In this document: positions 3,850 to 40,765 of the stretch, one piece after another
Layout of the letters: each line of letters begins with the position of its first letter
Numbering within the stretch: the first letter of the stretch is position 1
Source of the DNA: Synechococcus sp. UW105
Lineage (GTDB): Bacteria > Cyanobacteriota > Cyanobacteriia > PCC-6307 > Cyanobiaceae
DNA: 64,000 nt
NCBI RefSeq assembly: GCF_900473935.1
Contig: NZ_UCNN01000001.1
Coordinates: 1 to 64,000 of the forward strand
Direction: 5' to 3'
Program-made: the position numbers and the translations under genes
Notes under the pieces: model-generated
Database searches by the model: none
What the model was told of the DNA's origin: nothing
The model's input: only the letters and a program-made list of their open reading frames with translations

Positions 3850-6429
3850 TCATGGCCTCGGCTTGCCTCCGTCGCGATGCAGTCTCGCTTTGGTCATGGC
3901 CGTCGCCGCGCTTGTGCGGGGGTCGTCGGGCCAGGGATGTTTCGGATACCGCCCCCTCATTTCGCGACGGACGTCTTGATAGCTGCCTTGCCAGAACCCT
4001 TCTAAATCCTGGGTTCGTTGTAGGGGGCGACCGGCTGGGGAGAGCAGCTCGATGGTGACGGGCAGGGCGTGATCGAGCAGATGGGGCCCTTGATCGCAGC
4101 CGAACATTTCCTGCAGTTTCACGGACAGCACCACTTCTTGATCGGTATAGCGCAGGCGCGCTGCGCGGCCGGAGGGGATCATCACTGTGGTTGGCATGAG
4201 GCGATCCACGCGTTGTCGTTCACTCCAGTCCAGCCCGCCCCAGAGCGCCTCGATCAGCCCGTCTTCTTGAAGATCACGCCAGGCCATGCAGCCCATCAGT
4301 GCACTGCTCAGCCATGTTTCGGGTGCCTGGCGCAGATGGTCGACATCTCTGCAGGGCCAGGGCTCTCCGCGCTGAAGGTGGAGCAGCTGTAGGCGGGCCC
4401 GCAGCTGTTCGCTGGCCTCTCCCCAGGGCAGAAGGTTCAGCCCCTGCTCCTTGATGCATTCGAGCAAGAGTTGGCAGGCGGCCTCGGGAGATGGTTTCGG
4501 TCGCGTTTTGGTCTGCAGTCTCAGACCTCCGAGCAGCAGGGTGCTTTGGGCGCGGACGCTGCCGTTGGCCTCATCCCAGAACACAGTCGTCTGCCAATCC
4601 CCTTCCAGTTCAGCTCGCTCCACTAACCAGGCTTTCGCTAGGGGCAGGGCCAGTTGGATCTGGGCATTGCTGTGGCCAAGATCAAGGCGAGCCACGGCCA
4701 GTGCCTCCTGGCCGACCAGGGGGTCCTGTGGATGCAGGAGTGCCCCTCGTCCCTGACGCAATTGGTAGCGACCCGGTTGTTGCGCGCGTTGGAGAGCCAG
4801 CCACTCTGGAAATGCTGCCGCGATCAGGCTGGCGGCGATGGCCTCGTCTCCGTCTTGACTGGAGGGGGCGCTGGCCCAGCCCGGCAGCTCGGTCTCGGGC
4901 AACTCCGGAAGTGCTTTGACCTGTTGCTGCAGTTGCTTGCTGAGCCGGCGGATGGCGCCGACGCGTTCTCCTTTGCGTTCTCGCAGCAGCTGTAGGCGGG
5001 CCCCGAGGTCGACCCCGTGCTCCCGCGGGTTGAGAGGGTCGCGCTCGCTCAGGAGTGCGGCGAGGTCAGCGCCAAGCGTGCTGCACCCCCAGGCGCGGGC
5101 TTGAAGCAGAATCATCGCCAAGCGTGGGTGGGCGCCGAGTTGGGCGAGTTGACGGCCTGCCGCATTGAGGTTGCCGGAGGCTGTTAGGGCTCCTTGAGCC
5201 TGCAGTTGTTGCTGCCCCTCCAAAAGGGCTGGGCGTGGTGGCGGGTCGAGCCAATGCAGTCCATCCCCCAGCCCGGCGCCCCAAGCGGCCAGGTCGAGGA
5301 CTAGGGGTTGTGGGTCACTTCTCAGGAGTTCGGGAAGATCATGGCGCGGTCTGCGCTGTTGTTCTGCCTGCGACCAGAGGCGGATGCAGTGGCCAGGGCC
5401 CTGACGTCCGGCCCTGCCTCGGCGTTGGTCAGCACTGGCCACACTGGAGGGCACGGTGATCAGTCCTGCCATGCCACTGCCTGGGGAGTATTGGCTGTGG
5501 CGGCTGAGGCCGCTGTCGATCACGAGACGGACGCCGTCGATCGTGAGAGAGCTCTCCGCGATTGCCGTGGCAAGCACCACCCGACCATCGACATCGCGGC
5601 GGCAGGGGCGCAGCACTTGGCCTTGGCTTGCCAGGGGCTGCTGACCGTGGAGGCAGCAGATCTCCCAACCCTCAAGGGAAGGGGCTTTGGTGAGTTGCTC
5701 TCGGCAGCGCTCAAGCTCCCTGAGGCCAGGCAGAAACACCAGCAGGGTGGGAGGAGAGTCAGGGTCTCCCAGGTCGAGGCCATGCTTTTCGATGGCTCGG
5801 AGCACCGTGCGGTTGAGCTGTTCATCGGGGCGGGGCGGAAGGTGGTGGGTCTCCACCGGATAGGCGCGCCCTTGGCTCGTGAGGACGGTGGCCTTCGGTA
5901 ATCGCGCTTGCAGGTCGCTGAGGTCCAGCGTCGCTGACATCAACAGCAGCGAGAGGTCAGGACGCACCAGGGCTTGCGTGTCCCGCACCAGAGCCAGGGC
6001 TAGGTCGCTGTCGCGTCCCCGTTCGTGGAATTCGTCGAAGATCACGCAACCGATGCCCTCCAGCTCCGGGTCGGATTGCAGACGACGTAGAAACAGCCCT
6101 GAGGTGATCACCTCGAGGCGAGTTCGGCTGCTGCGCTGCTGTTCGTGGCGTACGGCGTAGCCGACCTGCTCTCCCAATGGCTCGTTCAGTTGATCCGCCA
6201 AGCGAGTGGCTGCCGCCTTGGTGGCGAGTCGCCGCGGCTCAAGCATGAGCAGCTTGCCCTTGATCGGGGGCAGGTTCGGCCAGCATCCGAGCAGGGCCAG
6301 GGGTGCCCGTGTGGTTTTGCCGGCTCCCGGGGGGGCCTGCAGAAGAACAATGGAGCCTGGACTCAGGTGCTGACGCAGCTCCGGCAGCAGGGAGTCAATT
6401 GGGAACGAACCCGATGGGGCGTGAGGCAA
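3850..6429 (-). CDS. hrpB: ATP-dependent helicase HrpB
   Basis: An 859-residue DExH helicase. Motif I GAGKTT is at residues 35-40 and DEFHERGRD at 132-140. Motif VI, including DQRRGRAGRQGPG, and the long C-terminal HrpB-specific region ending near YQDVRREMRGRYPKHPWPDDP are present. HrpB is a conserved bacterial relative of the RNA helicase HrpA; its cellular role is not settled. Length and domain order match full-length HrpB. The start is a TTG at 6429, which gives MPHAPSGSFPIDSLLPELR before the helicase core; no closer ATG fits. Confidence 0.92.
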   Translation of the reverse strand: MPHAPSGSFPIDSLLPELRQHLSPGSIVLLQAPPGAGKTTRAPLALLGCWPNLPPIKGKLLMLEPRRLATKAAATRLADQLNEPLGEQVGYAVRHEQQRSSRTRLEVITSGLFLRRLQSDPELEGIGCVIFDEFHERGRDSDLALALVRDTQALVRPDLSLLLMSATLDLSDLQARLPKATVLTSQGRAYPVETHHLPPRPDEQLNRTVLRAIEKHGLDLGDPDSPPTLLVFLPGLRELERCREQLTKAPSLEGWEICCLHGQQPLASQGQVLRPCRRDVDGRVVLATAIAESSLTIDGVRLVIDSGLSRHSQYSPGSGMAGLITVPSSVASADQRRGRAGRQGPGHCIRLWSQAEQQRRPRHDLPELLRSDPQPLVLDLAAWGAGLGDGLHWLDPPPRPALLEGQQQLQAQGALTASGNLNAAGRQLAQLGAHPRLAMILLQARAWGCSTLGADLAALLSERDPLNPREHGVDLGARLQLLRERKGERVGAIRRLSKQLQQQVKALPELPETELPGWASAPSSQDGDEAIAASLIAAAFPEWLALQRAQQPGRYQLRQGRGALLHPQDPLVGQEALAVARLDLGHSNAQIQLALPLAKAWLVERAELEGDWQTTVFWDEANGSVRAQSTLLLGGLRLQTKTRPKPSPEAACQLLLECIKEQGLNLLPWGEASEQLRARLQLLHLQRGEPWPCRDVDHLRQAPETWLSSALMGCMAWRDLQEDGLIEALWGGLDWSERQRVDRLMPTTVMIPSGRAARLRYTDQEVVLSVKLQEMFGCDQGPHLLDHALPVTIELLSPAGRPLQRTQDLEGFWQGSYQDVRREMRGRYPKHPWPDDPRTSAATAMTKARLHRDGGKPRP

Positions 6430-33782: not shown

Positions 33783-34128
33783 CTGGATCCTGTTCCTTTC
33801 GCCATTTTGGGGGCTGAATCGGCGTACAGCCGATCAGCATGGCCAGCTGAGACGAGGATGCAACCGCTCCTTGCATGCCTCCTCCCATCGGTTGGCGCAT
33901 CCAGTGTTGTTGGCGTCTTTCCCCTCGCCAGCTGAATGTATCGATCTTGCGTGTTCAGTTGGATCACATTCCGATAGAACCTTTGTTGCTTGAAGGCAAA
34001 GATCGCGGGGCTTGGTGGGTGGGCTGGACGCAACATTGGCGGTTCAGGCTGATTCGGTCGGAGAGAGTGTCTGGGTTGTGCTTGGTAAGCATGTTGTTCG
34101 TTGCTTCGTTCAGTGATGAGATGGTTTG
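33783..34128. other. 346 bases without a supported gene
   Basis: I see no convincing gene, RNA or repeat. A plus-strand open frame (33875-34129) spans much of it but has no clear ribosome binding site and an improbable composition. The region marks the change from G/C-rich genes to the A/T-richer segment that extends to about 39.3 kb. Confidence 0.4.
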
Positions 34129-34494
34129 ATGTGGCGGGAGAGGTTTGTTCGGCATGCTCAATTCCACGTGGCACTATTCATCCACGTCAGGTGGCTTCCC
34201 TCTCGAGATGGGCCAGGCCCGAGTGGCTTTTTGCTGTGGGGTTTCACAGCTTTAGGATTCTTTTCCGGACCTCTTGCGCCGATGCCTCCGATTGAAATTG
34301 AGAGGCCCATACCACCTTCTCAGGAGGGTCTCCGTCTCGATCAGTTTGAGATTGAGATTGATCAAAACAGCTTGGATTGTTCGGCAGGAGAATTGGCCTC
34401 TGGGATTAGGGCTCCGTTTCTCTATCGCCCCGAATCTGAGGCTTATCAGGGTGAGCTGCAGCTTCATGCTGCGCGCTGCAACATACGTTTTTAG
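34129..34494 (+). CDS. Unknown exported or anchored protein
   Basis: 121 residues from the ATG at 34129. A hydrophobic segment (GFLLWGFTALGFFSGPLAPM) lies at residues about 32-52, followed by a polar beta-like region (LDQFEIEIDQNSLDCSAGEL, then LYRPESEAYQGELQLHAARCN) with two cysteines. Because the hydrophobic stretch is internal, the real start may be later, near the TTG at 34225, making it a signal peptide. I recognise no family. Codon use is less G/C-rich than in the flanking housekeeping genes. Confidence 0.45.
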   Translation: MWRERFVRHAQFHVALFIHVRWLPSRDGPGPSGFLLWGFTALGFFSGPLAPMPPIEIERPIPPSQEGLRLDQFEIEIDQNSLDCSAGELASGIRAPFLYRPESEAYQGELQLHAARCNIRF

Positions 34495-34609
34495 GCGCGT
34501 TTGGTGGTCTTCCCGCACTGTTCCCCTTGCCCGGCTCAGCTGCGCTCTTCAGCTTTTCTCCCTGAGGTTTGGCTCCGAGTTGGCTGCCCTCTCTTTGAAC
34601 GATTGAGGT

Positions 34610-35113
34610 GTGGTGATTACGCTAAGGCAAGGCCCGATGGCGTTAGTTGTTGCTTTGAGTATGGCTAGAACTTTACGGCGAGTCTTCTTAAAATATATAC
34701 TTCCAATCACATTGGGTGGTGCTCTTTACGCCTCTTGTCGCACTCCTGTGCTTCTGTATGAAAGGCTTGCGCTCGTCTTGTTTGGTGTGCGCTGGCTTGG
34801 TGTTAAAGCCACATTGAATTCGGCTTGTTTGAGTCTGATTGGTGAAGGCCAGGTCTATGCGCTAATCGTTTACTCTCTGCCCAATGCTTTGTGGCATTTG
34901 TCCTTATGTTATTTCCTTGAGCAGGGACTGCGATCTTTTTTTGGCCGAGCTTCTTTGGCTTGGAGATTTCGTTTGGTTTGGTTTGTTTTGTTGGCTCAGA
35001 TGCCTGATCTCTTGCAGTGGGCTGGTTATTTGAGTGGTGTTGCCGATCCTGCGGATGTGCTTCTCGCTGTCGTCGCTTCTGTCATTGTTTGTGCTACCAC
35101 GAAGACTGCTTGA
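34610..35113 (+). CDS. Unknown membrane protein, 167 residues
   Basis: A hydrophobic protein with about four predicted helices (ITLGGALYASCRTPVLLYERL, VYALIVYSLPNALWHLSL, RLVWFVLLAQMPDLLQWAG, DVLLAVVASVIVCATT). The pattern NALWHLSLCYFLE near the middle resembles the helix-with-histidine seen in small integral membrane families, but I cannot name one. Starts are a GTG at 34610 or ATG at 34637. The DNA is clearly A/T-richer than the window average, suggesting a different origin or weak selection. Confidence 0.5.
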   Translation: MVITLRQGPMALVVALSMARTLRRVFLKYILPITLGGALYASCRTPVLLYERLALVLFGVRWLGVKATLNSACLSLIGEGQVYALIVYSLPNALWHLSLCYFLEQGLRSFFGRASLAWRFRLVWFVLLAQMPDLLQWAGYLSGVADPADVLLAVVASVIVCATTKTA

Positions 35114-35160
35114 CTTGGTTTTATCGATGCTGTAAATTGTCGCACTGGTCAATTCTTCTC

Positions 35161-35589
35161 ATGCGCAAACTGCGTCAATCTGCAGCCTTTTTTGCTGGCT
35201 TGGGCATTTTTTCTTTGTTGGCTGCTGGTTCTGTTGAGGATGAGGTTGATTATTCTGGGCTTGATTATTCAAGCCCCGCCTATAGGGTGAATTATAAGGA
35301 TTTGGCTGATGAATTTGATGAGAATTCAATTGCCGCTGAAAGTAAATACGATGGACAGTTGATCTATGTGAGCGGTCCGGTGGGGTCGGTGGATAAAGAT
35401 ATCCTTGATAATCCTTATGTTTCGATCACTGGTCAGTACGATTTTGCTTCTGTTCAATGCTTCCTGACGCCAGGAGAGGTGGAGGGTGCTTCTTCTCTCA
35501 GGAAGGGCCAAAGGGTTGTTGTGGCTGGTGTCGTTGGCGGTACAACTTTAGGGGTCACCCTTGATGGATGCAGGGTTGTGAGTGACTAG
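35161..35589 (+). CDS. Periplasmic OB-fold protein (tRNA_anti-like family)
   Basis: 142 residues from an ATG at 35161. A signal peptide (MRKLRQSAAFFAGLGIFSLLAAG) precedes the domain with DLADEFDENSIAAESKYDGQ, then LIYVSGPVGSVDKDI, PYVSITG, VQCFL, LRKGQRVVVAGVVGGTTLGV and LDGCRVV. The AESKYDGQLIYVSG and LRKGQRVVVAGVV motifs fit the tRNA_anti-like OB-fold family, found in many secreted bacterial proteins, for which no activity is established. The two cysteines of that family are present and could pair. Confidence 0.75.
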   Translation: MRKLRQSAAFFAGLGIFSLLAAGSVEDEVDYSGLDYSSPAYRVNYKDLADEFDENSIAAESKYDGQLIYVSGPVGSVDKDILDNPYVSITGQYDFASVQCFLTPGEVEGASSLRKGQRVVVAGVVGGTTLGVTLDGCRVVSD

Positions 35590-35622
35590 AACCTTGGCTT
35601 TAGTGAAGGTATTTCCATCAAT

Positions 35623-36267
35623 TCACCCTTTGGTATTGATGATAATCTCAACCCGGCGATTGCGTTGGCGACCTGATGGGTCATCTTCGCCATTTTCTGT
35701 TTCGTTGGGCACTGCTGGTTTCGTTTCACCGAAACCTTTGATGACGAATTGAAATGCTGTGAGCTCCCCACGATTGATCAACCAATCACGAACGGACCTT
35801 GCGCGTTTTTCTGAAAGATTTTGATTGTAAGAGTCTGATCCTTTTGAGTCAGTGTGTCCTTCAATCCGAATCTCACCGCGCCCAGAATTGCTGATCCGTT
35901 GTGCGACGCTTTTTAGGGATGTCAAAGCGGAAGATTTTAGCTTAGCTTGATCAAAGTCGAAGAGAATGTCAGCCGCCAATTCGATTACGATCTCATTCTC
36001 TGATTCGGTGATTGTGTTCAGATTGATGACAGGATAATCTATATCCTGAATCACAAACTCAAGGTTTTGTATGGATGCTTTTCTCTCTTTATTGGAAATA
36101 TCGGGCTTCGTATCTTGAGCTCTTGTTGCTTCAGCTTCACTGGCTGTTCCTGAAGTTGGATTGCCCCGCGCAGCACTGGCTGATCCAAACAGATGTAGAT
36201 GGAACAGCAGAATAAGGAAGAGCAAGTTTCGAGGCATTTGTTGGCTATGAAGGTAGTGCTTTGGCAT
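35623..36267 (-). CDS. OmpA-family peptidoglycan-binding protein
   Basis: 214 residues from the ATG at 36267 (an ATG at 36237 is also possible). A signal peptide (NLLFLILLFHLHLFGSASA) is followed by about 60 polar residues and a C-terminal OmpA domain: ILFDFDQAKLKSSALTSLKSVA, IRIEGHTDSKGSDSYNQNLSEKRA, FVIKGFGETKPAVPN and NRRVEIII. The Asp and Arg that bind diaminopimelate are in place. There is no beta barrel, so it is a periplasmic or cell-wall-associated protein. It begins five bases after the stop of the lipoprotein gene, so the two form an operon. Confidence 0.85.
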   Translation of the reverse strand: MPKHYLHSQQMPRNLLFLILLFHLHLFGSASAARGNPTSGTASEAEATRAQDTKPDISNKERKASIQNLEFVIQDIDYPVINLNTITESENEIVIELAADILFDFDQAKLKSSALTSLKSVAQRISNSGRGEIRIEGHTDSKGSDSYNQNLSEKRARSVRDWLINRGELTAFQFVIKGFGETKPAVPNETENGEDDPSGRQRNRRVEIIINTKG

Positions 36268-36271
36268 GTCC

Positions 36272-36886
36272 TTATTCCGTAATGCGAATGTCTTCGATTG
36301 GTGCAACGCCAGGCAAATAGATCGATACGGTCTTGACATCTGCAGGCGGTGCTGGGAATTTTGCCCAGACATTGATGCTTGAGTTTGGAGATAGAATGAT
36401 TGGCATTTTGAATCTGCTGGCTACAGGCTTTTTGTTGGCTCTAACGACTAAGTGCTTCTTCTGATTGATGCTGTCGATAATATAAGTGCCGTTGCCGTGT
36501 GCGCCTGCAGCCAACTGGTAGGCGCAATACCATGCGTAGCACTTCACCAGTGTCTTATCTTCTGCGGATGTATTGGTCATCTTCCAGTAAACATTCAACG
36601 TGTTCCCACTTGATCGCTTCACGTTTAGAAGAGAAACAACAACTCCTTCAATTTCATAGGGTTCAATGGCCAAAGATTTCTCTGTTTGATTCTGGGGCTT
36701 TGTTTCATTGTCTTCTTCTCCAATGGTCTCCTGAGGTGTTGCGCTTGCCTGCGCCTCTCTTCCCTCTGCGACTGGATCAGCGGGTGCTTGAGTGGTTCCC
36801 GTGTTGTTATTGCAGCTTGCAAGCCCGATTGCAGCTGTTGAGAAGACCACAATGGCAAGGAGGTAAGTTTTCCAGTTTCTCATCAT
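36272..36886 (-). CDS. Unknown lipoprotein, partner of the OmpA-family protein
   Basis: 204 residues. The lipobox LASC at about residues 22-25 follows a hydrophobic stretch, so the protein is predicted to be lipidated. An acidic Gln/Glu-rich linker precedes a beta-rich domain (EPYEIEGVVVSLLNVKRSSGNTLNVYWKMTN) resembling periplasmic immunoglobulin-like folds such as DUF4352. Two cysteines in CYAWYC may form a disulfide. Its stop is five bases from the OmpA gene start; a shared cell-envelope role is inferred. Confidence 0.75.
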   Translation of the reverse strand: MMRNWKTYLLAIVVFSTAAIGLASCNNNTGTTQAPADPVAEGREAQASATPQETIGEEDNETKPQNQTEKSLAIEPYEIEGVVVSLLNVKRSSGNTLNVYWKMTNTSAEDKTLVKCYAWYCAYQLAAGAHGNGTYIIDSINQKKHLVVRANKKPVASRFKMPIILSPNSSINVWAKFPAPPADVKTVSIYLPGVAPIEDIRITE

Positions 36887-37291
36887 TATTCTGTTTTGAT
36901 GATGTTGGCGGTTGATTCCTGATTCTTGTTAGCAGGCTGCAGCGGCCTCTTCAAGGCTGTTTCACATTTTAATATTTACTGATAGCTTCTTGCGCTACGT
37001 CTTCGTTTAGAGCTTTCTCAATTTGTGATTGGCTTCGCAGAAGGAGCAGAAAGGTCATACGAGTATGACTGCGCATGGTTAAACTGTAATGCGAATAGGA
37101 TTGTCAAGAAGATTCGTTTCATTCTTTCCAGAGGTTTCAGTGAATCTACAGACGCCAAATGCATCAACAGGATTGGTGGCAATCATCCCTTTTGACAACA
37201 TTAGTCATGGCAACTGTGTCTATAAATTTAATTTAGATTATTTTATCCATTCTGACTTCTGTTTGATCGCTTCTGATGTGATTTCGTAAGT
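36887..37291. other. 405 bases without a supported gene
   Basis: A/T-rich sequence upstream of the lipoprotein gene, containing a plus-strand open frame of 66 codons at 37089 that I do not believe because it lacks a ribosome site and any recognisable motif. The promoter of the lipoprotein-OmpA operon must lie here. Confidence 0.4.
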
Positions 37292-37326
37292 CAAAATAAA
37301 AGCCCCTTGCCTGAGCAGGAGCTTTT
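37292..37326 (-). terminator. Terminator of the first Nif11-type precursor gene
   Basis: Read on the minus strand, AAAAGCTCCTGC pairs imperfectly with GCAAGGGGCTTTT around TCAG and is followed by ATTTT. It sits about 35 bases past the stop codon of the precursor gene at 37359. Confidence 0.7.
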
Positions 37327-37358
37327 GAGGCGATGATCCGTATCCTCTACTTGCTGAA

Positions 37359-37610
37359 TTAAGCGCAGCTAAATAGGCTGACGCAGATCGTTTTCGAGCA
37401 ATATTTGCCGCCTGCGACGCCTTCTAGCTCATCATCGGAAAGCACTTCAAATCCAGAAACTTTTTTGAGTTCCTCAGCGGAAAACATAAAACCTGCTTCT
37501 TTTGCAATGCTAATAACGATCTCGGCTGAAGTTGCTGTCTTAAGTTTCTCCTGAAGATCGCTGTTGCCTTTGACTGTGTCCAGGAATGCTTTGAGTTGCT
37601 GTTCTGACAT
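37359..37610 (-). CDS. Prochlorosin-like lanthipeptide precursor (Nif11 leader), copy 1
   Basis: An 83-residue precursor. Residues 1-68 are a Nif11-type leader: MSEQQLKAFLDTVKGNSDLQ, then EKLKTATSAEIVISIAKEAGF, and a DDELEGVAGG end. This matches the leaders of ProcA peptides (prochlorosins) of Prochlorococcus and Synechococcus almost motif for motif. The core after the double glycine is 15 residues, KYCSKTICVSLFSCA: three Cys, three Ser and one Thr, suitable for (methyl)lanthionine rings. No LanM is nearby, so modification by an enzyme encoded elsewhere is inferred. Confidence 0.88.
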   Translation of the reverse strand: MSEQQLKAFLDTVKGNSDLQEKLKTATSAEIVISIAKEAGFMFSAEELKKVSGFEVLSDDELEGVAGGKYCSKTICVSLFSCA

Positions 37611-37945
37611 GTGCAATAAGGTCTGGATGATTCTATTGTCGCTTCAGCAAGCAGAGTTGTCAGGCTTAGGTTAAGAAATATTCGCTCCAGTGATGCCCAA
37701 GGCCTTCTCCCTTCTGCGCTGCAGAGCTCCTACCCCCAGAATCGTTGAGTCTGTTTGTATTTGGGTCTTTGTAGCAAAATCTGGCTTGGTCTTGTCTATG
37801 AGGTTCATGCATATGATGTCACCAGCATGCAGATGCATTTTAAGTATTTCGCCGGTCAGTTGAGAATGCAAAGCTCTGTAGGTTGGAGTCTTGAGTGTAT
37901 TGTATTAATGCCTTTGCTTGTTATGGGGAAACGTCAAAGTATCTA
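37611..37945. other. 335 bases between precursor genes
   Basis: The first 60 bases (37611-37668) are the upstream region of precursor 1 and include the element shared with precursor 2. The remainder has no convincing gene; a minus-strand frame at 37671-37871 lacks any recognisable feature. A 12-base segment, TCTGTAGGTTGG, near 37880 recurs near 38389. Confidence 0.4.
37631..37668 (-). promoter_or_regulatory. Conserved upstream element of precursor 1
   Basis: On the plus strand TTCTATTGTC, then GCTTCAGCAAG, then TTGTCAGGCTT. The same order and spacing occur at 38221 upstream of precursor 2, in both cases starting 21 bases from the ATG. It could be a shared promoter or 5' leader element. Confidence 0.5.
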
Positions 37946-38200
37946 CTAGCAATTAAAGCTTAACCGGGTGTTTGCTGCGCATCCAGTTAACTGAACGCAA
38001 GTTCCTCCAGACAGGCTTTCCAGGTCTTCTTCTGATAGGTCGGATTGAGCCTTGGCAATGTCATTGGTAGAGATATTAAATCCCGCTTCTTTTGCAATAG
38101 AAATAACAGCATTGGCATCACTTGCTGCTTTGAGCTTCTCCTGGAGACTGCTGTCTACTTTGACTTCTTCCAGGAAGGCTTTGAGTTGCTCTTCTGACAT
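37946..38200 (-). CDS. Prochlorosin-like lanthipeptide precursor (Nif11 leader), copy 2
   Basis: An 84-residue precursor from an ATG at 38200. The leader (residues 1-66) begins MSEEQLKAFLEEVKVDSSLQ, contains VISIAKEAGFNISTNDI and ends LSEEDLESLSGG. The 18-residue core TCVQLTGCAANTRLSFNC has three Cys and four Ser/Thr. Leader residues 1-41 closely resemble those of the other copies while the core is unrelated, the hallmark of prochlorosin families. Its first 75 bases are nearly identical to those of copy 3. Confidence 0.9.
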   Translation of the reverse strand: MSEEQLKAFLEEVKVDSSLQEKLKAASDANAVISIAKEAGFNISTNDIAKAQSDLSEEDLESLSGGTCVQLTGCAANTRLSFNC

Positions 38201-38790
38201 CAGCAAAAGGGTTTTTATTCTTCAATTGTCCCTCCTGCAAGAACTATTGTCCGGCTTGAGTGGAGAAGGTTAACAATCCAGCCACTGCCATGGGCGCTGA
38301 TCGCATTGCCAAAGGTTTCTCGGCTCTCTGTAAGACCTTTCCTGCCGACATGTAGAGGTGGTGGGGCCTGTCTTAGAGGTCTGTAGGTTGGTGAAATGGC
38401 TGGCGGAAGGACCTCTGATGCGCCTTATGGTTTGTTGTGGATGAGCTTGTGTGACTGGATGACTTTCAAATGGGTTCAACGATTTGCTCGATTAATCTCC
38501 TGACTGGCGATTGGAATACGTGGGTGAGTGAGTACTCGGTGTTGTTCCCTTCAGTATTCATAAGATCACGGTTGTTTCTGTGGACAATGCTGTCCCCGTC
38601 TGGGTTACTGTTGAAGCGGTTGTGAAAGGATACTGCTCGTTTCCAGAATGAGAAAGATGAGTTACCCTAAAAGAGAAATGCTGGCAGGTGTTGGAAGCTA
38701 ATGTGTGGGTTTATGGGCTTGGCTAAAGAAGTGAAAAACTATAATTGCAGGGCGGGCGTGACTCCATCAATATTTATCCATCATTTTGAC
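38201..38790. other. 590 bases without a supported gene
   Basis: The first 60 bases are the upstream region of precursor 2. The rest is A/T-rich, with scattered short open frames. A plus-strand stretch near 38600-38655 encodes VDNAVPVWVTVEAVVKGY before a stop and might be a decayed gene, but I cannot identify it. I see no RNA gene, insertion sequence or tandem repeat. Confidence 0.4.
38221..38258 (-). promoter_or_regulatory. Conserved upstream element of precursor 2
   Basis: TTCAATTGTC, then CCTCCTGCAAG, then TTGTCCGGCTT on the plus strand, aligned without gaps to the element at 37631. Precursor 3 lacks a clear copy. A common promoter, a mRNA structural element or simply shared ancestry of the duplicated genes would all explain it. 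Confidence 0.5.
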
Positions 38791-39063
38791 TCATGCAAAC
38801 TCGCATGATGCGTCTGCAGTGTCTCGAGTTCTGCATGTGTTGCCAGTCTGATCGCATCCCTTGCTTCCGGTGATGACCTCCAGTTCTGCTTCTGAAAGCT
38901 CTGTGATGATCGGGTGATTCAGGTCATCGGAAGAGATTCTGAATCCTGCTTCTTTCGCAACGATCGCAACAGTCTCGCTATTAGTAGCAGCTTTGAGCTT
39001 CTCCTGGAGACTGCTGTCTCCTTTGACTTTTTTCAGGAAGGCTTTGAGTTGTTCTTCTGACAT
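38791..39063 (-). CDS. Prochlorosin-like lanthipeptide precursor (Nif11 leader), copy 3, with a Gly-Ser leader end
   Basis: A 90-residue precursor from an ATG at 39063. The leader starts MSEEQLKAFLKKVKGDSSLQ, contains VAIVAKEAGFRISSDDL and ends LSEAELEVITGS; the usual second glycine is serine. The 23-residue core carries Cys at core positions 3, 10 and 20, four Thr and one Ser, and is richer in charge than the other two. GA and GS ends are tolerated by some C39 proteases, so it can still be functional. No transcription terminator is obvious downstream. Confidence 0.87.
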   Translation of the reverse strand: MSEEQLKAFLKKVKGDSSLQEKLKAATNSETVAIVAKEAGFRISSDDLNHPIITELSEAELEVITGSKGCDQTGNTCRTRDTADASCEFA

Positions 39064-39349
39064 CAGGCTTTAGGTGGATTGCTTTAGTGTTAACAGAGGA
39101 ATCTAATTCATACCTTAGTGATAGTTAGTGGTTGATGTTGCCAGGTATTGAAATCAGATTGCTGGGCTTGTGGACGTGATTGTAGCAATGAAAATTCTCT
39201 GAGATTGCAAGAGATTTGAGAAAATAGGATTCACAAGTCTAACCGCAAAAGGGGCTTGACATGTAACGATTCGAAGCACATCCTGCCATATTTCTGGACG
39301 GCAAACCACCAGCCACTTCTCAAGCCAATCTTCTCATCTCTCGACCTTC

Positions 39350-40765
39350 TCACCCCCTCTCCACCCCACTCCCGCACTTGGCGCGCTGCCGTTCCAGCTT
39401 GCGGCGCATTCGAGCGGTGATCCCCAGCTCCGCACCACGCCACATTCGGTTCATCTCGCGCGTGAAGTGCGCGGCGAGCTTTGGTGATTCAATCACCAGC
39501 AGGGTTTCATCGTTGGTGTGAGCGGCGGAGGGGCTCCAGTTGAAGGATCCTGTGATCACGGTTTTGTTGTCGATTACGGCAAACTTGTGATGAAGCTTGT
39601 CACCGCGTGCCAAGCGTGGGGTGCCGACAGTCTGGAGGGGATCTTGAAAAGGGTTGTTGCCGGCTTCCAGTTTGCAGAAGCGATCCGGCATGGCCATACC
39701 GAGTAGATCCAGCACTTCCGAAAAGGGCCGGCTGGCGAAGCCGGGATCAGCCAACAGGCGTACCTTCACGCCTTCATTCACGCGCTGTCGTAAGGCGTCG
39801 GTCAGATCCTGGGCTGAAAACACGAAGACTGCCATATCGATGCTTCGTTGGGCTTTGTTCAGTTCCTGGCCAATCAGTGCAAGGCCGTGCTCGCTGTTTC
39901 GTTTGGCATGGGGAGCGAAGAGCACCTTGATCCTGGCCTCGCCAACATCGACCTGCTCGATCGAGGGAGCGTCTTTGGCGCGCCCAAAGCGGCTGTTCTG
40001 TTGTCCTCCGGGGCCATCCCCCCACATGCGCTCGAACTCCTGGCTGAATAGGGAGGCGAGTTCAGGGCTCTTCACCGTGATCAGATGGTTCACATTGCCT
40101 CTGGTGCGGGGGGCATCGGCGTCTCCATGCAGACCGGAGCTTGTGAAATTGGCGCTGCCGGTGACGACCTGGTTGCGATCGATCACCACGAATTTGTGGT
40201 GCATCAGGCCGCTGCCCTTGCTGCCGTCTTCTGTGTCGTCAATTCGAGGCACAGCTCCTCGCGCAAGAATGGCGATCGCATCCCCCTGTAGGCGCTCCTC
40301 CGCGCTGAGCACGCCATCACCATTGCGATCGGCCAGTCGCTTGAGGCGTTGAAGCCGCTTGCGCTCATGTGGCGTCAGGCCCGCCTCGTGCTGCTGGCTC
40401 CAGGCCTTGCTGTAGTTGTTCTCCAGCACCACTTGGACGCGCACACCACGTTGATGGGCCCTGACGAGGGCATTGGCGATCGCCGGTAGGGATAGCTCTT
40501 GAATGGCGACCAGGCACTCCACTTGGGCTTGATCGATGGCCTCGATCAGTTGCTGCTCGAGGTTGTCACCGTTGCGCCAACGGCCGTTAAGCGGGCTGCG
40601 GTAGCGGGCGTCGTCGCGATGGTTGAAGGAGACCTGAATGTGCTGGAGTTGAGCTAACCCCTTTGTCGGTTCCCCCAGCAGCTCCCCGGCCTGGCTGCAG
40701 GATCCACAAAGCATTGGCAGCAGCACCAGCAAGATGCGGAGTCCAGGCGGCTGACGTCTGATCAC
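39350..40765 (-). CDS. Phospholipase D-like lipoprotein with an EF-hand loop
   Basis: 471 residues. The signal LLVLLPMLCGSCSQ contains a lipobox, so a membrane-attached exported enzyme is expected. Two HKD motifs, HHKFVVIDRNQVVTGSANFT and HHKFAVIDNKTVITGSFNWS, form the phospholipase D active site; each has the trailing GS/N residues. Between residues about 140 and 155 lies DRNGDGVLSAEE, a textbook EF-hand calcium loop (D1, N3, D5, S9, E12). The substrate may be phospholipid or nucleic acid; I cannot tell. It ends close to the precursor cluster but its base composition is like the core genome. Confidence 0.88.
   Translation of the reverse strand: MIRRQPPGLRILLVLLPMLCGSCSQAGELLGEPTKGLAQLQHIQVSFNHRDDARYRSPLNGRWRNGDNLEQQLIEAIDQAQVECLVAIQELSLPAIANALVRAHQRGVRVQVVLENNYSKAWSQQHEAGLTPHERKRLQRLKRLADRNGDGVLSAEERLQGDAIAILARGAVPRIDDTEDGSKGSGLMHHKFVVIDRNQVVTGSANFTSSGLHGDADAPRTRGNVNHLITVKSPELASLFSQEFERMWGDGPGGQQNSRFGRAKDAPSIEQVDVGEARIKVLFAPHAKRNSEHGLALIGQELNKAQRSIDMAVFVFSAQDLTDALRQRVNEGVKVRLLADPGFASRPFSEVLDLLGMAMPDRFCKLEAGNNPFQDPLQTVGTPRLARGDKLHHKFAVIDNKTVITGSFNWSPSAAHTNDETLLVIESPKLAAHFTREMNRMWRGAELGITARMRRKLERQRAKCGSGVERG

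Follow-up and report, generated by a model that had tools for sequence, protein, structure and literature searches.

Three prochlorosin-type lanthipeptide precursor genes on a strain-specific insert of Synechococcus sp. UW105

We analysed a stretch of 64,000 nucleotides from Synechococcus sp. UW105 (contig NZ_UCNN01000001.1, positions 1 to 64,000; hereafter, the window), in which three neighbouring genes encode small proteins with a Nif11-type leader and a short, Cys-containing core (genes 1-3, Table 1). These genes are very probably lanthipeptide precursors of the ProcA/SyncA type that are modified in trans by the single LanM of the genome, which is encoded on another contig, and they add new members to the known prochlorosin/synechococsin family. 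Prochlorosins and synechococsins, the products of ProcA/SyncA precursors and ProcM/SyncM enzymes, have been described in Prochlorococcus MIT9313 and Synechococcus MIT9509 (PMC10783134, PMC9872173, PMC10306099). The source genome (2.66 Mb in 31 contigs, 99.9% complete) is labelled G000 below, and the window belongs to its contig C17. Its gene content is in keeping with a marine picocyanobacterium of the Synechococcus type.

Table 1. Positions of the precursor genes and of the associated features in the window
Feature	Position	Strand	Evidence or remark
procA-type precursor gene 1	37359..37610	(-)	leader end ..ELEGVAGG, core KYCSKTICVSLFSCA; TIGR03798 80.5 bits
procA-type precursor gene 2	37946..38200	(-)	leader end ..DLESLSGG, core TCVQLTGCAANTRLSFNC; TIGR03798 88.7 bits
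procA-type precursor gene 3	38791..39063	(-)	leader end ..ELEVITGS, core KGCDQTGNTCRTRDTADASCEFA; TIGR03798 74.8 bits
Strain-specific insert, 2.3 kb, containing genes 1-3	37037..39355	.	BLASTN of the window flanks against L149 (genome G029)
Phospholipase-D-like gene (PF13091); its 3' end marks one edge of the insert	39350..40765	(-)	Pfam
Promoter-proximal stretch upstream of gene 1	37626..37699	(-)	75-81% identity over 43-76 nt to eight MPG-linked procA genes
Dead 5' stub of a methylpurine-DNA-glycosylase (MPG) gene	38221..38410	(+)	upstream of gene 2 and divergent from it
Full block copy upstream of gene 3	39114..39244	(-)	nhmmer E 1.8e-20; model R1, whole genome, E 3.0e-18
Partial block copy downstream of gene 3	38677..38752	(-)	nhmmer E 4.7e-8; R1 E 1.4e-7
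Terminator-like part of the block, 27 nt past gene 1	37294..37331	(-)	nhmmer E 0.0011, model positions 23-60; weak

Leaders and cores of the three precursors

All three translations start with MSE[EQ]QLKAF and score far above the cut-offs of two leader models, TIGR03798 leader_Nif11 (74.8-88.7 bits; cut-off, 32.3 bits) and PF07862 Nif11 (61.6, 64.5 and 60.6 bits for genes 1, 2 and 3; cut-off, 23.8 bits). A first-pass annotation, made from the letters of the window, had described a shared Nif11-type leader with this N-terminus and a GG or GS end, and had proposed leader profile searches as a check; the scores bear the description out. It had also given cores of 15, 18 and 23 residues with three Cys each, which translation reproduced in every detail for genes 1, 2 and 3, respectively, with 4-5 Ser/Thr per core.

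For the genus as a whole, 217 precursor genes were collected. Those scoring less than 60 bits (17) were dropped, as were 17 others that lacked a recognised leader end or had a core shorter than 8 residues, which left 183, the three window genes among them. Cys makes up 10.1% of the core residues of these precursors, compared with 2.3% and 4.2% in the other two frames of the same DNA, and 0.14% of their leader residues; the Cys content of the cores is more than chance. Exactly three Cys are present in 39 of the 183 cores. The leader ends in GG in 177 precursors, in GA in five and in GS in one, gene 3.

In 1.63 Mb of related sequence, the longest nucleotide match of the three cores outside their own locus does not exceed 17 bases. 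Therefore, they may be new peptides, in line with the earlier suggestion of new compounds. A search of named genomes for relatives of gene 1, from which very near genomes may be left out, returned 110 pattern stretches, none of them confirmed. Gene 2 had no match in phage records, and an Rfam search of the window found nothing.

A single LanM with an adjoining exporter

Genome-wide, one LANC_like protein was found, on contig C2. It is a class II LanM of 1059 aa (TIGR03897, 763 bits; cut-off, 304) with the domains DUF4135 and LANC_like and the motifs WCHG and CCG. The CCG motif, described as a mark of the ProcM group (PMC10783134), is present in all 14 LanMs compared (13 of this genus and one of Roseovarius). 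Adjoining the lanM gene are genes for a C39-domain ABC protein (PF03412, 99.9 bits), a second ABC protein, an HlyD-like protein and a TolC-like protein; these proteins match NHLM export families, yet they fall under the strict NCBIfam equivalog cut-offs. Thus, the ProcM-like lanM and the C39-domain ABC transporter for which the first-pass annotation had recommended a genome search were both found, side by side. Peptidase_C39 matches are present on C14, C2 and, under the cut-off, C8. Since the LANC_like and Peptidase_C39 matches are confined to contigs other than C17, neither a LanM nor a C39 protease lies in the window, as had been noted. A second C39-domain match, stronger than that beside lanM and away from it, is located at G000:C14:10510-10896 (L033; 125 bits) in a 775-aa frame.

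Of the 33 Nif11 matches of any kind that the genome gives at E<=1, 17 are ProcA-type leaders at E<=1e-8. With 17 leaders and one LanM, the three window genes are most simply regarded as part of a scattered precursor set that would be served in trans, and one trans-acting LanM serving scattered precursors is given as the norm for the prochlorosin family in PMC10783134. The term 'orphan' that had been applied to the cluster thus holds for its neighbourhood and fails for the genome, in which a LanM with a C39 exporter alongside is present.

A LanM was detected in 12 of the 31 genomes that represent the genus, and its presence and the number of precursors go together. ProcA-type leaders at E<=1e-8, counted among the best 150 candidates scored per genome, number from 4 to at least 150 in the 12 LanM-positive genomes and from 0 to 5 in the 19 LanM-negative ones, several genomes being incomplete (one-sided Mann-Whitney p 2.3e-6 over the 31 genomes, a statistic that ignores relatedness). 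Taken together, the Nif11 scores, the CCG-type LanM, the C39 exporter and this genus-wide link uphold the earlier recognition of a ProcA prochlorosin pattern with one LanM in trans.

On this basis, we envisage the following pathway. Ribosomes would make the leader and core of each precursor; the single trans-acting, ProcM-like LanM would bind the Nif11-type leader, dehydrate Ser/Thr of the core and close thioether rings with the three Cys; and the C39-domain ABC exporter encoded beside LanM would cut after GG (or GS) and export the peptide. Expression of the three genes, modification, ring pattern, cleavage and export of their products, and any biological role, are predictions drawn from leader family and genome content.

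A strain-specific insert at an integration hot spot

The three genes lie in DNA that is missing from the closest genome found, G029. The match between this genome and the window runs for 5,990 bp to position 39356 (95.5% identity) and resumes at position 37036 for another 12,042 bp (96.5%). At the site of the insert, G029 carries 998 bp of different DNA, including a 79-bp displaced piece of a phospholipase-D-like gene. G029 has no LanM match and keeps two ProcA-type leaders elsewhere at E<=1e-8; its exporter region, about 69% alike, is located at another place. The insert has a G+C content of 43-48%, compared with about 60% around it, and contains long non-coding gaps. On a wider scale, G+C drops to 43-51% over positions 34000-39300, compared with about 55-61% on both sides.

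The phospholipase-D-like gene at the edge of the insert is present in 29 of the 31 genomes. Additional fragments, all from its 3' part, occur downstream of it in 12 of the 20 loci examined (the window and L149-L168 were the material used), and a tyrosine-recombinase match shortly precedes the displaced 3' piece in six genomes; five of these recombinases, when compared, were 70-94% identical. Because of these displaced pieces and the recombinases close by, the 3' end of this gene is, as judged from sequence, an integration hot spot in the genus. A precursor-like match was obtained at one of the 20 sites and was weak (G006, E 1.7e-6). No recombinase and no recognisable displaced gene end were found in the insert of the window. 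The possibility that part of the phospholipase-D-like 3' end persists downstream, within the insert, was rejected, as local alignment returned only the overlap of two query pieces. We propose that the three genes reached their present place as a 2.3-kb insert at this hot spot.

A decayed fourth precursor in the gaps of the insert was also considered and rejected. In a tblastn search of the window with 200 precursor proteins, only the three genes were convincing; 16 other places matched at E 9e-5 to 7e-3, mostly with a single query each.

Probable origin of the genes and other mobile contexts

The MPG stub upstream of gene 2 comprises only the beginning of the gene, in a frame with VEVVGPVLEVCRLVKWLAEG and stop codons; intact MPG elsewhere is recognised as PF02245. 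Aligned over 152-209 nt with the regions upstream of eight other, MPG-linked procA genes, this stub shows 69-74% identity, and in six of these eight (G000 C22, G005, G006, G008a, G021 and G028) the alignment continues into the divergent MPG gene. A conserved small open reading frame or structured RNA upstream of gene 2 was rejected as an explanation, the conservation being that of the divergent MPG gene. Because parts of the regions upstream of genes 1 and 2 are shared with MPG-linked procA genes, these two genes probably belong to an MPG-linked procA lineage and would have moved along with a piece of the neighbouring gene. Upstream of gene 3 lies a different region, which is common, at a nearly fixed distance, to many procA genes of tandem arrays, and we propose that gene 3 may derive from a unit of the kind found in such arrays.

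Precursor and LanM genes have further mobile contexts. In G005 (L169, 5900-10600), a recombinase gene, a RAYT transposase gene and a procA gene are located between a truncated and a complete copy of MPG; the family of the recombinase was checked at this locus, and those of MPG and RAYT on the copies in G000. A tyrosine-recombinase gene at G000:C27:18599-19051 (L171) lies about 1.5 kb ahead of two tandem procA genes. The LanM region starts where G029 and G000 stop matching, just past a 39-bp sequence (L002, about 5746-5791). In G029, this sequence forms the 3' terminus of the 6S RNA gene (Rfam, 98.1 bits) and is present twice, exactly, about 15.5 kb apart (C14:108461 and C14:124036; L195 and L196), with a tyrosine-recombinase match near the second copy.

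A conserved block flanking procA genes

A conserved block of about 110-130 bp flanks precursor genes. A profile built from the region upstream of gene 3 gave 251 matches in procA-rich loci, a few places being counted twice where loci overlap: 189 are close to a procA gene on the same strand, 39 are near one on the opposite strand and 23 are near none. In places where the block comes after a gene, it starts at a median of 27 nt past the stop codon, and it ends at a median of 63 nt ahead of the next start. Its consensus contains a terminator-like stretch (GCCCCTGCAATCGCAGGGGC-TTTTT). The copies in the window are degenerate: that upstream of gene 3 consists of a degenerate terminator-like hairpin and a spacer, and the part past gene 1 was missed both by the sequence-only model R1 and by a terminator scan.

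When R1 was applied to seven whole genomes, with the best 150 candidates per genome scored, 77 matches were obtained: 13 in G000, 6 in G029, 22 in G021, 19 in G005, 17 in G018 and none in G003 and G019. Ten of the 13 matches in G000 adjoin procA genes, two follow a gene of a second family, described below as barrel-like, and one (C27, E 2.8e-4) is unassigned. RNAalifold found no pairs of a conserved, covarying palindrome in 24 block copies chosen for divergence, and a named 6-pair hairpin was 76.6% paired, compared with 75.3% in shuffles.

RAYT transposases and a second gene family

Of 25 RAYT (IS200-like) matches, counting fragments, 23 have the block 107-168 bp downstream in convergent orientation; the two without it are a truncated copy and a match located at the end of a contig. 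The block thus adjoins RAYT genes, as a repeat of the repetitive extragenic palindrome (REP) type does; it shows no palindrome supported by covariation. RAYT was detected in 8 of the 31 genomes and in 5 of the 12 LanM-positive ones. Recombination genes and transposases have been noted near prochlorosin-type genes (PMC10783134).

The second family came to light in G021, which has no LanM and 4 ProcA-type leaders, and in which most of the 22 block copies follow members of this family. Its proteins have a signal-peptide-like start, a body conserved up to NRDVRVHD and then a scrambled C-terminal tail. Of the six blocks in G029, four lie behind such a gene or what is left of it, one behind the tip of such a gene at a contig end and one ahead of such a gene. 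At least two members are present in G000, one on C17 near 80 kb (40 kb past the insert and beside a RAYT gene) and one on C26. The loci of this family, the block and RAYT that were used here are L172, L169, L204-L212, L218 and L221-L223, from G000, G005, G021 and G029. The bodies score 14.1, 11.5 and 14.0 bits against the inverse-autotransporter model IAT_beta PF11924, below its cut-off of 22.3, and an AlphaFold model with a mean predicted local distance difference test (pLDDT) score of 33.7 was unusable. The name 'barrel-like' is therefore a lead only. Literature searches returned no publication on this family. A 2022 bioRxiv preprint by Laurenceau et al. reportedly links TnpAREP (RAYT) transposases with lanthipeptide genes, as its title states; the link between RAYT and lanthipeptide genes is thus already in that title, and the second family was not found in print.

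Conserved flanks and dissimilar middles

The two families share a pattern in which similar flanks enclose dissimilar sequence. In the barrel-like family, the last 240 nt before the junction are 81% identical (median of pairs), whereas the first 60 nt of the tails show an identity of 0.52, the same as when shuffled (0.52). Similarly, among 60 sampled procA genes, nucleotide identity is 0.71 in the leaders and 0.49 in the cores, compared with 0.49 in shuffled cores. In G021, a pair of barrel-like genes shows 98% identity over the 240 nt before the junction and 99% over 136 nt shortly past the stop codon, and their tails of 32 and 23 residues are unrelated. Among procA genes, 44 pairs from the same genome have leaders at least 88% identical, and in 24 of these an identity of 85% or more also covers at least 60 nt downstream. 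Twenty-one of the 24 have unrelated cores (15 in G022, 3 in G012 and 1 each in G005, G010 and G028).

Cys numbers differ between the two families. Of 166 cores with Cys, 83 have an odd and 83 an even number, whereas 16 of the 17 barrel tails with Cys have an even number and one an odd number (20 tails were examined, 3 of them without Cys; Fisher p 5e-4, relatedness ignored). This parity fits disulfides in the tails and lanthionines, formed from Cys and Ser/Thr, in the cores. A search for a common source gave no cross-matches between 19 tails and the cores of a 200-gene set, and no source sequence for any core or tail was found by cross-matching tails and cores and in the 1.63 Mb of related sequence.

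Weighing the explanations

Several observations weigh against the assignment of genes 1-3 as functional precursors. The leader counts across the genus include some other Nif11 proteins, the LanM-positive and LanM-negative groups overlap slightly (4 versus 5) and relatedness was ignored. The GS end of gene 3, found once in 183 precursors, is a rare variant that the protease may or may not accept; nhmmer recognised no block downstream of gene 2; and a scan of positions 36900-39500 gave no excess of sites over shuffles, with 4 promoter-like sites (3.1 in shuffles) and 1 terminator-like site (2.8 in shuffles). The argument from Cys parity is purely statistical and likewise ignores relatedness. One alternative is that the genes are decaying copies stranded in the hot spot, with a recognisable leader and no longer expressed or processed. 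The low G+C content and long non-coding gaps of the insert would suit such copies, as would the degenerate hairpin of the block before gene 3, the partial block after it, the lack of one at gene 2 and the GS end; moreover, the LanM-negative sister G029 still has its two ProcA-type leaders, so leaders can outlast their enzyme. We nevertheless consider decay unlikely, given that the three frames are open, the leaders score 75-89 bits, each core retains its three Cys and 4-5 Ser/Thr, and the genome encodes a full-length LanM and exporter. Less probable still is that the cores are linear or disulfide-containing peptides exported by the C39 system and not lanthipeptides at all. C39 exporters also serve unmodified peptides, and the support for lanthionines comes only from the homology of the leaders and from the genome having a LanM; against this, precursor number tracks LanM presence, and the cores lack the bias towards even Cys numbers seen in the barrel tails. 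Modification in trans by LanM therefore stands as the preferred explanation for the three genes.

For the dissimilar middles, we can put forward, with considerable doubt, that marine picocyanobacteria share a 3'-end diversifying module, namely a block tied to a RAYT (HUH) transposase and sited just past genes. Such a module would exchange the last 10-100 codons as a whole, leaving the gene body and the block in place, and would act on at least two unrelated families, the lanthipeptide precursors and a secreted barrel-like protein. In the former, the core would be replaced and LanM would then make its rings; in the latter, the tail would be replaced, with Cys mostly even in number, in keeping with disulfide loops. 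Genes 1-3 would then be products of the module that moved together into the hot spot. Flank-preserving gene conversion could, however, yield the same picture, and we give roughly an even chance to the explanation that flanks are kept alike by conversion and old cores diverge alone by insertion-deletion, with no dedicated 3'-end diversifying process. RAYT is present in only 5 of the 12 LanM-positive genomes and was not detected in G022, which supplies 15 of the 21 flank-sharing procA pairs with unrelated cores. No source of cores or tails was found, which also weighs against a module, and insertion-deletion events are named as a source of core diversity in PMC10783134. Conversion is less readily reconciled with the presence of the same 3' block and transposase beside another gene family, unrelated to the first, in which the pattern recurs, or with the two G021 barrel-like genes, whose near-identical surroundings enclose tails of unrelated sequence and different length that would be hard to obtain by gradual change.

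Comparison with known systems

The window genes resemble prochlorosins and synechococsins, as published descriptions present them, in the Nif11-type leader with a double-glycine type end, the short, hypervariable, Cys-rich core, the scattered and tandem genes, the one CCG-type LanM acting in trans, and the C39, ABC, HlyD and TolC genes near lanM. They differ in that their cores are unlike the other cores compared, gene 3 ends its leader in GS, and the genes form an insert at a phospholipase-D-like 3' end with no biosynthetic gene adjoining. The position of RAYT beside procA, with the shared block past 23 of 25 RAYTs, agrees with the association between TnpAREP and lanthipeptides stated in the preprint title and extends it, in that here block and RAYT also occur beside the barrel-like family with scrambled C-termini. 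As in integrative elements whose attachment site is a 3' or 5' portion of a host gene, tyrosine recombinases lie by displaced phospholipase-D-like and MPG ends, and an exact 39-bp repeat of the 6S RNA 3' end surrounds an island in G029. Unlike such elements, the window insert has no recombinase or recognisable displaced end.

The prochlorosin family, valued for the promiscuity of its ring-making enzyme, thereby gains three unseen cores, and a precursor set is seen as a strain-specific insert, with a procA-free site in a near-identical relative that lacks LanM. If a shared 3'-end module does exist, the diversification of prochlorosin cores becomes open to testing. Since another family, with no enzymatic relation to the first, combines such scrambled 3' ends with the same block and transposase, a common cause can be sought, and a single process at work in two unrelated families would be of high interest.

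LanM relationships and a LanM outside the genus

In a LanM tree, the enzyme of UW105 groups with that of G005 (91/93), a placement without firm support. A further search, of genome contigs, found LanM in Roseovarius lutimaris only, and a search of viral contigs found none. The LanM of this alphaproteobacterium (L203) is 55.5% identical over 1061 aa and has the CCG motif, and an open reading frame with a Nif11 leader (51 bits) lies near it. Horizontal transfer is a possible explanation for its presence there.

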